From Sphingomonas bacterium (GTDB lineage Bacteria > Pseudomonadota > Alphaproteobacteria > Sphingomonadales > Sphingomonadaceae): 64,000 nt of DNA. Under the pieces are notes generated by a model. It was not told the origin of the DNA. It did not search any database and saw nothing but the letters and a program-made list of their open reading frames with translations. The DNA lies in contig NZ_CAHJWJ010000003.1 of assembly GCF_903642285.1 (NCBI RefSeq), positions 1 to 64,000 on the forward strand. The letters are read 5' to 3'. The position numbers were made by a program, and so were the translations under genes. Shown here piece after piece: positions 21,170-40,350 of the stretch. The stretch's first letter is position 1. Every line of letters begins with the position of its first letter.

Positions 21170-22102
21170 ATGACGGAGATGAACTGGACGATCGCGGTGC
21201 ATGGCGGCGCGGGCCGCCTGACGCGCGACACGCTGACGCCCGAACAGGATGCGGGCGCGCGGGCGGGGCTGGCGGCGGCGATCGATGCGGGCGCGGCGAT
21301 CCTCGCCCGCGACGGCTCGGCGCTCGACGCGGTCGAGGCGGCGGTGCGCGTGCTGGAGGACGATCCCCGCTTCAACGCCGGGCGCGGTGCGGTGCTGACG
21401 CATGCGGGCGCCATCGAACTCGACGCCGCCATCATGGACGGCCGCGACCGGTCGGCGGGCGCGGTGACGGGGGTGACGCGTACGCGCAGCCCGGTGGCAC
21501 TGGCGCGCGCGGTGATGGCGGACGGACGCCACGTCTTCCTGGCGGGCGCGGCGGCGGACGTCTTCGCCGACGACCAGGGTCTGGACCGCGCCGCCCCCGG
21601 CTGGTTCGAGACCGACGAGCGTCGCCGCCAGCATGCCGAACTGATCGCGGGCGGTGGCGACGGCTTCGACGTCGACATGAAATACGGCACCGTCGGCGCG
21701 GTGGCGCGCGATGCCGCGGGGCATCTGGCGGCGGCGACCTCGACCGGCGGCGTGACCGGCAAGCGCTGGGGCCGGATCGGCGATTCGCCCGTGATCGGTG
21801 CGGGGACCTGGGCGGACGATCGGTCGGTCGCGGTGTCGTGCACCGGGTCGGGCGAATATTTCCTGCGCGTGGGCGTCGGGCACGAGATCGATGCGCGGGT
21901 ACGGCTGGCAGGCGCGACGCTGGCCGCGGCGACCGATGCGGTGCTGGCGGAGGTCGAGGCGCTCGGCGGCACCGGCGGCGCGATTGTCGTCGGGCGCGAG
22001 GGCCCGGCGCACTGGGCGTTCACGACGCCGGGGATGAACCGGGGGATGGTGTCGGCCGGTGGGGCGGCGGTGGTGGCGATCTACGGGGATGAGTGCGGGT
22101 AA
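21170..22102 (+). CDS. iaaA: Isoaspartyl peptidase / plant-type L-asparaginase
   Basis: An Ntn-hydrolase that removes isoaspartyl residues from peptides or hydrolyses asparagine. The 310-residue precursor begins WTIAVHGGAGRL and contains FNAGRGAVLT; autocleavage is expected before Thr174 in KYGTVGAVA, making that Thr the nucleophile of the beta subunit, with TSTGGVTGKRWGRIGDSP following. Length and motifs are normal. A second ATG three codons in is an equally possible start. Confidence 0.93.
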   Translation: MTEMNWTIAVHGGAGRLTRDTLTPEQDAGARAGLAAAIDAGAAILARDGSALDAVEAAVRVLEDDPRFNAGRGAVLTHAGAIELDAAIMDGRDRSAGAVTGVTRTRSPVALARAVMADGRHVFLAGAAADVFADDQGLDRAAPGWFETDERRRQHAELIAGGGDGFDVDMKYGTVGAVARDAAGHLAAATSTGGVTGKRWGRIGDSPVIGAGTWADDRSVAVSCTGSGEYFLRVGVGHEIDARVRLAGATLAAATDAVLAEVEALGGTGGAIVVGREGPAHWAFTTPGMNRGMVSAGGAAVVAIYGDECG

Positions 22103-22147
22103 GAGGCGGATCGGAAGAATGGCGAGAAATGGGTGGAAAGCAGTCGT

Positions 22148-22297
22148 TCAACGCAAAGCGTAGAGGATCAACCCGAGGGCTACGGCGATCAGTAGCAGCG
22201 TTCCAAAAACTGCCGTGATCCAAGCGGCAACCCACCCATGACGTTCGTCCACGACTTTAATTACGTCTTCGACCAGACCAAATAACATGACGTCCAT
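22148..22297 (-). CDS. Single-helix small membrane protein (49 residues)
   Basis: An ATG-TGA frame of 49 residues: a charged N-terminal part (GLVEDVIKVVDERHGW) followed by one strong transmembrane helix (about 24-45, WITAVFGTLLLIAVALG) and a short basic tail. The composition is that of a genuine small membrane protein, but there is no clear ribosome-binding site. It is the last of several tiny ORFs on this strand. Confidence 0.5.
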   Translation of the reverse strand: MDVMLFGLVEDVIKVVDERHGWVAAWITAVFGTLLLIAVALGLILYALR

Positions 22298-22415
22298 GCG
22301 GCGAGCTTACGCGCGTAAGGAGTTTGCGCAAGTGGACGGAAGCGGCTGCACCTACTTGCTGGAAGCGCCGCACTAGAGCCGCGCGGCAACCCCGCCATTG
22401 ATGACATTGCGTACT

Positions 22416-22514
22416 TTACAAACTCTCGTAGCCGAGGTTCAGCACGAAGGCGAATGTGAGGGCCGCGCCGATCCCAGCCAGCACGCCTACAATGGCTAAG
22501 CCGCGACGCTGCAT
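22416..22514 (-). CDS. Possible single-helix small membrane protein (32 residues)
   Basis: MQRRGLAIVGVLAGIG then a hydrophobic run to about residue 26. Two arginines before one transmembrane helix give a clear inside-positive topology. It overlaps the 3' end of the preceding 36-residue ORF by 19 bases. Too short to judge by codon use; supported by its position in a string of similar ORFs. Confidence 0.35.
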   Translation of the reverse strand: MQRRGLAIVGVLAGIGAALTFAFVLNLGYESL

Positions 22515-22606
22515 TCGGAGATCGCGTCAAGCACTATAGAGGCAATAGATAGGGTTATTGCAAGAAGCAGGGCTGTCCCCAGGACAAGGAGGTCGGCGGA
22601 CCTCAC
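22496..22606 (-). CDS. Possible single-helix small membrane protein (36 residues), GTG start
   Basis: Begins VRSADLLVLGTALLLAITLS: one transmembrane helix followed by a short acidic tail with a Cys. The GTG start overlaps the stop of a 13-residue leader frame as GTGA, with GGAG immediately upstream. This stop/start layout repeats the one at 22881-22884. Confidence 0.4.
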   Translation of the reverse strand: MRSADLLVLGTALLLAITLSIASIVLDAISECSVAA

Positions 22607-22644
22607 TCCGGCTTTTCCAGGGACTTAAGTTTTGCCTTTTGCAT
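22603..22644 (-). CDS. Possible 13-residue leader peptide
   Basis: Reads MQKAKLKSLEKPE and stops at TGA inside GTGA, whose GTG opens the next small membrane ORF. The last 18 bases match the end of the leader at 22881 at 16 of 18 positions. Could be a translated leader coupling the downstream ORF, or chance. Confidence 0.3.
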   Translation of the reverse strand: MQKAKLKSLEKPE

Positions 22645-22659
22645 AATTCAAACCCATCG

Positions 22660-22884
22660 TTATGGACGGCGCAACCGACGAAAGTAATTCGACTGCTGCC
22701 GAAGCCGGACAATCACGGCGCATAAGGCGGGGTACAGGATCAACCCGGTAATCGCGAGACGCCGCCAAAGCTCTGACCAGCCGATATCGTCCTGTAGGCG
22801 AGTGTAGTAAGCGGCCCCAATCAGCGCACCCATAACGACGGGCCACATCAAAGCCGCCCGTTTGAGCGTAGAGCGCATTGTCAC
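22660..22884 (-). CDS. Two-helix small membrane protein (74 residues)
   Basis: A GTG start (22884) or an ATG two codons later (22878). Two transmembrane helices, about 10-27 and 43-60, with a basic C-terminal tail (RQQSNYFRRLRRP). GTGA overlap with the preceding 26-residue frame and GGAG upstream. Best supported of the tiny genes in this stretch; function unknown. GC content here is visibly below that of the flanks. Confidence 0.5.
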   Translation of the reverse strand: MTMRSTLKRAALMWPVVMGALIGAAYYTRLQDDIGWSELWRRLAITGLILYPALCAVIVRLRQQSNYFRRLRRP

Positions 22885-22961
22885 TCCAGCTTTTCAAGCA
22901 TCGGCTTCGTGAGCCGTTCCTTGGGCGTTGACCTGTCGGCGGACGGAAAGATCATCTGCAT
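22881..22961 (-). CDS. Possible 26-residue leader peptide
   Basis: Hydrophilic frame starting MQMIFPSADRS and ending PMLEKLE, stopping at TGA within GTGA at the start of the 74-residue membrane ORF. Shares its last 18 bases (16 of 18) with the leader at 22603. Its coding status is uncertain. Confidence 0.3.
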   Translation of the reverse strand: MQMIFPSADRSTPKERLTKPMLEKLE

Positions 22962-23261
22962 ACGACGATTATGCCGGTCTCAACGAACGTTTGCAATCGA
23001 GGTGCGACCCAAAGGCGCGGGAATGGCAAGAGTTGGGCGCAGCAGCCAATTCGACGCTGTCCTACAAACGATGATCCATGCCACGTCCGGGCCATGCTAC
23101 CATCAGTCGGCCACTCAGCTACCACCCCACCAATCAGGCTAAGCCATTCTTTTCACACGAAGTGGAAAAGTGCATGGCACGCCTCCACTTCCTCCACTTC
23201 CGCGGCCATCCGGGCACCCGCGTCCCGCCGATCGCGGCCGGCGGCGACCCATGGTATCGGT
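22962..23261. other. Gap without a recognisable gene
   Basis: Between the tiny ORF cluster and the family-6 repeat I find no convincing frame on either strand. It should contain the promoter for the leftward small ORFs. GAAGTGG and CCACTTCC words recur near its right end. Confidence 0.5.
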
Positions 23262-23408
23262 CTGTCCTACACATTCCGTTCCGTGCCATATCGGCGGCAT
23301 GTCGCATCATCCCGTCCCCGCCGCCCGCCGCCAGCGCTTCGCATCCGCCTTGCGGGAGGTGATTCCGGGCGGGACGTGGCGTGTGGTTCGTCCACTTCCG
23401 CGCATTTG
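23262..23408. repeat. Family-6 dispersed repeat, copy 1 (reverse orientation)
   Basis: Its reverse complement shares GGAAGTGGACGAACCACACG, then ACGTCC, CACCTC and GTGTAGGACAG in the same order with 40205-40350. The span of about 145 bp, with conserved ends and a less conserved middle, suggests a non-coding interspersed element. Here it lies immediately before the nuclease gene start. Confidence 0.6.
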
Positions 23409-23409
23409 G

Positions 23410-40204: not shown

Positions 40205-40350
40205 GCGAACGGAAGTGGACGAACCACACGCTACGTCCGCACCGGAAACACCTCGCGCATGGGTTCGTCGGTGGTTCGTGCTGCGGGGGTGAGGCGAGGG
40301 ATGCGCCATTGTGCCGCATAGATCACAAGTGACGTTGTGTAGGACAGCCA
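40205..40350. repeat. Family-6 dispersed repeat, copy 2
   Basis: Contains GGAAGTGGACGAACCACACG, ACGTCC, CACCTC, GGATGCG and GTGTAGGACAG in the same order as the reverse complement of 23262-23408. Together with the family-4 repeat at 40358-40443 it fills the 368-bp gap between yggT and folD, in which I see no gene. Confidence 0.6.

Follow-up and report, generated by a model that had tools for sequence, protein, structure and literature searches.

The window (the whole stretch of 64,000 nucleotides that was analyzed, contig C3 of a host genome assembly of 3.05 Mb in 54 contigs) contains a cluster of very small minus-strand frames between two plus-strand genes. The gene at 21170 to 22102 is presumably isoaspartyl-peptidase-like, and the gene from about 23410 is one that we take to be S1/P1-nuclease-like; both names are read from the sequence. 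The features between them are as follows.

22103 to 23409: island between the peptidase-like and nuclease-like genes, most likely inserted (basis: the gap in relatives)
23055 to 23209, minus strand: array-head sequence (GGAAGTGGAGGAAGTGGAGGCGTGCCAT ... TGTAGGACAGCG), parts of which recur at contigs C34, C23, C20, and C25
23021 to 23052, minus strand: degenerate 32-bp site 1 (GAATTGGCTGCTGCGCCCAACTCTTGCCATTC), aligned by eye to GAAYGTCCGCTTTCGCCCANTTGCGGACRTTC and weak alone
22962 to 23014, minus strand: half-site and predicted leader 1 promoter, TTGCAA (22996-22991), 17 nt, CATAAT (22973-22968), 6 nt, ATG
22881 to 22961, minus strand: leader ORF 1, 26 aa, ending LTKPMLEKLE
22660 to 22884, minus strand: 74-aa two-helix membrane frame, GTG start in GTGA, no convincing homolog
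22603 to 22644, minus strand: leader ORF 2 (MQKAKLKSLEKPE and stop), tail shared, among 151 genomes, with G022 only
22496 to 22606, minus strand: 36-aa single-helix frame, GTG start in GTGA, no convincing homolog
22416 to 22514, minus strand: 32-aa single-helix frame overlapping the 36-aa frame, no convincing homolog
22298 to 22349, minus strand: site 3 and predicted promoter of the 49-aa gene, TTGCGC (22331-22326), 16 nt, TAAGCT (22309-22304), 6 nt, ATG
22148 to 22297, minus strand: membrane protein of 49 aa from a conserved family
22117 to 22149, minus strand: cassette tail or terminal site GAACGACTGCTTTCCACCCATTTCTCGCCATTC, overlapping the 49-aa stop codon and matching GAACGTCCGCTTTCCACCA at 16 of 19 positions

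Comparison with relatives indicated that the two flanking genes normally lie close together. A search of 60 genomes gave peptidase matches in 49 genomes other than this one, and the 29 best of these loci were compared. A nuclease motif was found 59 to 217 nt past the peptidase match (i.e., at less than 300 nt) in 21 of these 29 relatives and at 356 and 1167 nt in two further ones; in the other six, none appeared within 1.5 kb of the peptidase. In the window, the gap from the peptidase to the nuclease motif is 1382 nt. Because of this difference, ~1.3 kb was most likely inserted here between two otherwise close genes. The island is also the lower-GC stretch that a sequence-only reading of this DNA had described, with a GC content of 0.566 compared to 0.669 for the window.

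Relatives of the 49-residue protein were detected by sequence in 8 other genomes of 150 (E ≤ 0.01), and a profile (E ≤ 1e-4) found them in 29 of 295 congeneric genomes, its own among them. At E ≤ 0.01, the profile reached 45 of 295 genomes, many of these being short matches inside long frames. The better relatives share [W]V[DE][DE]RFGR-AAW followed by one hydrophobic stretch, and dN/dS within the family was 0.17 to 0.43 (seven pairs of relatives). This frame belongs to a real family under purifying selection. AlphaFold2 predicted helices at residues 3 to 20 and 22 to 48 (mean pLDDT, 81.5; pTM, 0.46). A match to DUF1206 was rejected at 22.2 bits, below the Pfam gathering threshold of 26.2.

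The sequence-only reading had counted up to four small membrane proteins. Its frames of 32 and 49 residues are indeed present (22514-22416 and 22297-22148, minus strand), and the membrane-protein claim stands for at least the 49-residue frame; the 74-, 36-, and 32-residue frames had no convincing homolog in 150 other congeneric genomes. Conservation of frame with biased substitution, the check that this reading had proposed, was found for the 49-residue family and not for the others. The 74-residue frame, which has two hydrophobic stretches by eye and an alternative ATG start at 22878 preceded by GGAG, had no homolog in genome contigs, viral contigs, or plasmids; in the congeneric genomes, five matches at E values of 0.003 to 0.009 were dropped, as they lay inside frames of 415 to 732 aa. 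The 36- and 32-residue frames gave weak matches only, again inside long frames. Because these two overlap and carry one hydrophobic stretch each, they may be coupled genes or a single two-helix gene split by a frameshift. The GC3 of the three frames is 0.62 to 0.76, in a genome with a GC content of ~67%. The small frames matched DUF1206, AcrZ, FixQ, and holins only weakly or below the cut-off, and these matches were rejected. The suggestion of toxin-like proteins was not borne out, since no toxin-like feature was found and the family matches were all of this kind. Two RNA family matches near the island were at chance level, far below gathering.

The leaders were recovered as they had been read: two on the minus strand, ending in LEKLE and LEKPE, with stop codons inside GTGA sequences that open small frames. 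Leader 1 reads MQMIFPSADRSTPKERLTKPMLEKLE and a stop, and its GTGA opens the 74-residue frame; that of leader 2 opens the 36-residue frame (22606-22496). The 16-of-18-base agreement of the leader ends, with its GGAG, was likewise confirmed, and a match this good arose in 1% of 200 shuffled islands. When related genomes were searched, the leader 2 tail with an RTGA overlap turned up in one other genome of 151: TGGAAAAGCCNGARTGA occurred twice (window and G022) and 0 times in the reversed control. The leader 1 tail differs from the pattern searched. In G022, TGGAAAAGCCNGARTGA ends a 14-residue leader (MNERMTHKPMEKPE and stop), a two-helix protein of 64 residues begins at the ATGA of that leader, and the module lies directly after a gene of the 49-residue family. 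The start codon sits at the identical position after the leader tail, GTG in the window and ATG in G022; the 74- and 64-residue proteins showed no similarity to each other. The shuffled islands and the recurrence in G022 place the duplicated leader/GTGA module beyond chance. Under looser settings, stop/start leaders were found at 8 of 206 sites, including the window's, several of them doubtful (e.g., L160, L158, and L138), so coupling of the main gene to a short leader is uncommon.

Short repeated sites separate the units. The order in a unit is head (CGCCCANTTGCGGACATTC), small gene, tail (GAAYGTCCGCTTTCCACCA), with the head supplying the −35 element; a tail followed by a head forms an imperfect palindrome of ~32 bp with an asymmetric center. 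The sites of the window are degenerate. In 404 kb around family members plus the own genome, a 23-base consensus gave 15 matches at a score of at least 18, compared to 0.33 expected, and site 3 was its sole match in the window at that score (matches listed from 17). There were 34 occurrences of the exact head, spread over 24 of 151 genomes, with none in the own genome and 0 in the reversed control. Among 84,980 species, it was found in 75 stretches, 64 of them Sphingomonadales by title; ten were named outside this order, with 7 to 8 estimated by chance, and one was named only Alphaproteobacteria. Eight of the 75 were excluded as non-Sphingomonadales from the counts of ORFs, spacing, orientation, arm pairing, cargo, and leaders. 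L169 (named Microvirga sp. SRT01) and L189 (named a Massilia MAG) were first excluded and then kept because each has a second direct copy of the site; they may be Sphingomonadales DNA. The exact head was also seen in five IMG/VR viral contigs (L227 to L231), one of which has two copies 2.2 kb apart. The 32-nt consensus had no match in phage records at E ≤ 0.1 and one match in plasmid records (Sphingomonas sp. MM-1).

The arrangement of the sites was examined in loci L108 to L119 and L152 to L226, which formed the pool for the ORF, spacing, and orientation counts. Neighboring sites up to 2.5 kb apart were co-oriented in 45 cases and opposite in 0, with a median gap of 538 bp. The cassette ORFs had a median length of ~105 aa and a mean GC content of 57.7%, compared to 62.8% for the loci. 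No ORF of at least 30 aa began within 75 nt of the site at 21 of 119 sites, and some arrays (e.g., L165, L114, L190, and L221) end in a site without an ORF behind it.

The distance from the head to the start codon is regular. An ATG lay 28 to 30 nt past TTGCGG at 59 of 119 distinct sites, compared to about 1.9 per other position, and [TC]ANNNT lay at a spacer of 16 to 18 at 46 of 119, compared to about 2.4 per other position. In the 49-residue family, TANNNT ended exactly 6 nt before the start codon in 20 of 28 loci; for this count, several starts were set by hand, L077 was excluded as having no ATG, and the start of L088 was placed wrongly by a few bases, as it also was in the promoter-plus-start profile. 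With the window excluded from training, that profile ranked the window's 49-residue start first in the 64 kb, with 23.4 bits compared to 16.0 for the runner-up. The leader 1 site, at 12.0 bits, was the best minus-strand match of the element profile in the window; three plus-strand matches outscored it (14.8 at 22380, 12.8, and 12.7 bits), and ~1 window match of 12 bits is expected by chance. The 14.8-bit match, the highest of this profile in the window, lies inside the island and opposite to the cassettes.

Given this fixed spacing, leaderless mRNAs are predicted, the promoter-to-start geometry of the cassette genes apparently leaving no room for a 5′ UTR. According to a study of Zymomonas mobilis, also of the Sphingomonadales, mapped promoters there have TTGNNN, most often 17 bp, TANNNN, and most often a 6-bp discriminator, and 119 of 2,675 TSS-gene pairs are leaderless (PMC7566282). 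By this geometry, transcripts would start on the A of the ATGs considered here. The cassettes resemble the leaderless transcripts of that study in having TTGNNN-17-TANNNN and a 6-bp discriminator (PMC7566282), and differ in that promoter and start lie in a repeated unit that appears to be mobile and in that the starts are predicted from sequence.

Tails were found where cassettes end. A tail matching GAAYGTCCGCTTTCCACCA at 13 or more of 19 positions lay within 100 nt after the stop codon in 59 of 100 cassettes, compared to 5.5 expected from their own loci; the reverse strand of these segments gave 0 of 100. The exact tail alone occurred five times in 151 genomes (control, 0). In three of these five loci, a head matching at 16 or 17 of 18 positions sits 376 to 533 bp upstream in direct orientation; the other two had no good upstream head, and an ORF of at least 45 aa ending within 70 nt of the exact tail was present in only two of the five.

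The same cassettes also appear in different surroundings. Homologous cassette proteins had unrelated flanking DNA in 10 of 10 pairs, to the extent of the loci (120 to 800 bp compared upstream and 60 to 760 bp downstream, and much less for L187 and L176). A good example is a pair of Novosphingobium loci with 98% identity over 467 bp, from TCGCCCACTTGCGGACATTC to AACGGCAGCTAGCCACCAT, that differ on both sides. In a second pair, with 78% identity, homology also stops at the CCACCA of the tail, and four relatives in the 49-residue family diverge at the same place, just past C-N-C-C-C-A. Since homology stops there in all three cases, the exchange points probably lie in the center of the composite site. 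At L187, a lone cassette is found between flanks without a recognizable site. The cassettes are co-oriented and appear to be mobile as units; excision or transposition itself was not seen.

Elsewhere in the own genome, ten element-like matches were found (one with one mismatch and nine with three; control, 1). Parts of the array head lie upstream of four other element loci (C34, C23, C20, and C25), whereas the 157 kb sampled and the remainder of the window gave no match; the six element matches lacking it may be due to chance. The one-mismatch site, at C23, has an Imm53 gene behind it at leaderless spacing (E 4.8e-31, above the cut-off) and then a tail. The sequence TGTAGGACAG (window 23055-23209 and 23262-23301, also at 40210 and 40337) was seen before arrays including L218 and L165 and also elsewhere, and a GGAAGTGGACGAA..CCACG piece recurs at 40210 in the window and at 2532 in L105.

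For cargo, 100 cassette proteins were scanned, namely, 57 of 64 ORFs and 43 of 69 ORFs, those dropped being likely wrong frames or members of the 49-residue family. Most match no family. In the first 57, Pfam gave three families and NCBIfam six, with one member each at E ≤ 0.01 (best NCBIfam match, SCO4402, 7e-14). In the other 43, Pfam at E ≤ 0.001 gave DUF7336 (two proteins), Imm53, CdiI_3, two glyoxalase models, SnoaL_3, AtzH-like, and Sel1, and NCBIfam gave TIGR02246 in one. Immunity families account for 2 of the 100, one Imm53 protein from this genome and one CdiI_3 protein from G108; immunity proteins are therefore present yet not dominant among recognizable cargo. By eye, a second small two-helix cassette family recurs (first ORF of L239, MSEGYRGGGTTGGKWGC...; L075 at about 1209; L178; and L199), and it also occurs near a gene of the 49-residue family in G067.

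No common linked recombinase was found among the recombinase regions and neighbor families listed. Among the matches listed, the integron integrase TIGR02249 exceeded its cut-off in 1 of 151 genomes (G052:C15:13996-14940, 508 bits), and no cassette site lay in the 14 kb around it (L242/L271). Of 20 recombinase regions fetched, chosen from the matches listed, only the one in G108 had sites nearby. The neighbor there (L131/L252, G108:C1, about 3660260-3661425) is in our reading an IS91-type element with a transposase and a tyrosine recombinase. It lies ~320 bp upstream of, and divergent from, the array with CdiI_3, an integron-like layout that seems accidental because three other copies of the element have no site. 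The wider neighborhood was covered by 86 ORFs of at least 170 aa at 26 array loci, selected with a rough coding filter. These were mainly ordinary chromosomal genes (best 25 of 103 Pfam and 25 of 78 PHROG families). Among the families listed, no Pfam recombinase family had two or more of the 86 neighbors, and PHROGs gave one transposase family in two and one integrase family in one.

Arm pairing did not exceed shuffling (0.534 versus 0.527, shuffle maximum 0.542, 157 sites), and palindrome covariation was negative at three site thresholds, the loosest (250 sites) giving 0.483 against a shuffled mean of 0.461 and maximum of 0.485. As arm pairing equals that of shuffles, the palindrome may not be functional. 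Rfam at gathering found only a tRNA in nine array loci.

Integron cassette arrays (IntI/attC, including CALIN) consist of head-to-tail, co-oriented small genes, mostly of unknown function, with a repeated site between them. The arrays described here share the co-oriented head-to-tail small genes, the repeated site, and the presence of the same cassettes in different contexts. Unlike integron cassettes, however, these carry their own leaderless-type promoter and a site of ~32 bp, occur as short arrays in several places within a single genome, and show no conserved hairpin like that of attC, their arms pairing no better than shuffles; the integrase, in 1 of 151 genomes among the matches listed, has no site near it. 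The rAID arrays of Bacteroidales are similar in other ways. As described in PMC12247911 (see also PMC10470768), they have co-oriented short genes, conserved intergenic motifs, some immunity cargo, and low GC. The co-oriented short genes, the motifs, and the low GC recur here, and a few cargo proteins match immunity families, although most match no family. In contrast to rAID arrays, no common linked tyrosine recombinase was found (1 of 20 regions and one integrase match among 86 ORFs, among the families listed), only 2 of 100 cargo proteins were recognized as immunity proteins, the order of bacteria is different, and the promoters are of leaderless type. REP sequences in BIMEs are likewise short, dispersed, imperfect palindromes, but they alternate in orientation (PMC2817692), whereas here 45 of 45 neighbors are direct and genes lie between the sites. 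The system works like integron or rAID arrays and fits neither definition. Among the matches listed from the open-access literature, no fitting description of such arrays was found, no paper joined Sphingomonas with leaderless and small proteins or TSS, and the letters of the site occurred only under unrelated titles.

We put at roughly 60% the probability that mobile gene cassettes make up the island as a short array, a type found mostly in the Sphingomonadales. What points to this in the DNA itself is the insertion, the unit boundaries, the tails after stop codons, the single orientation, the unrelated flanks, and the promoter geometry. Beyond these lie our inferences, from better to less supported: a recombinase, movement of the cassettes in living cells, transcription of leaderless mRNAs, coupling through the leaders, and a role in defense. 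The earlier finding holds but was incomplete. The tiny membrane genes probably represent the cargo of an inserted cassette array, and what links the frames, missed at first reading, is the direct-repeat sites, the leaderless-type promoters, and the insertion between two genes. A putative trans-acting recombinase (Xer-like or element-borne) would excise and insert cassettes at the site center, the asymmetry of which would fix their orientation. The head would then drive each gene as a leaderless mRNA (TTGCGG, 16 to 17 nt, YANNNT, 6 nt, start codon), so that genes would work at any place of landing. Where the start of a main gene is not at the transcript end, a short leader ORF, itself leaderless and ending in RTGA, would precede it and pass on the ribosome by coupled reinitiation; the LEKxE/GTGA module would be such a leader. 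The cargo would form a lineage-specific pool, and the small membrane proteins may, quite speculatively, be orphan immunity or defense genes against toxins of neighbors.

Several other explanations must be weighed. The head may be no more than an extended −35 element shared by a regulon of leaderless genes, and the tail may be a hairpin resembling a terminator, with ordinary recombination moving the genes and the repeats not being recombination sites. The head does act as a promoter by its position and fits the mapped Sphingomonadales promoters (PMC7566282), and the missing common recombinase among the regions and families listed, like the absent arm covariation, is what such a promoter class would give. 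Yet divergent genes should then yield inverted neighbors, none of which were seen in 45, the homology of the 98% pair stops inside the site at both ends, and some arrays end in an ORF-less site; we consider this account unlikely, though it has to be taken seriously. Precise unit ends and the lone cassette at L187 would also suit a MITE-like or IS200/IS605-like non-autonomous transposon that has GCGGACRTTC/GAAYGTCCGC as subterminal inverted repeats, carries a passenger gene, and depends on a transposase acting in trans, but strict head-to-tail arrays in a single orientation make this improbable.

Two further possibilities concern the frames themselves. If the island were noncoding low-GC debris, its frames would be accidental save for the 49-residue gene; the lack of convincing relatives for the 74-, 36-, and 32-residue frames and their GC3, low for a genome of ~67% GC, agree with this. 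However, the leader tail recurs exactly in G022 beside the 49-residue family, with the same RTGA overlap and a 64-residue two-helix protein, which leaves debris only a small chance. That the 49- and 74-residue proteins are membrane toxins of addiction modules is very improbable: small size and helix content are all that speak for it, whereas no family match rose above the cut-off and the recognized array cargo includes immunity families.

Extending the cassette-array reading, it is possible, if tentative, that these loci belong to a previously unrecognized gene-capture system of Sphingomonadales, in which the recombination site is itself a leaderless promoter, a putative recombinase acts in trans, tiny orphan genes (immunity genes and small membrane proteins) are arrayed at many chromosomal loci, and coupled leader peptides adapt genes that are unable to start at the transcript end. 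If true, this would explain how tiny lineage-specific genes move and are expressed at once on landing, with no need of the resident platform promoter on which integrons depend. Small, easily missed leaderless genes would become findable via the head and tail, and the Sphingomonadales, which are common plant and water bacteria, would gain a system for capturing genes, along with a set of candidates for orphan defense proteins.
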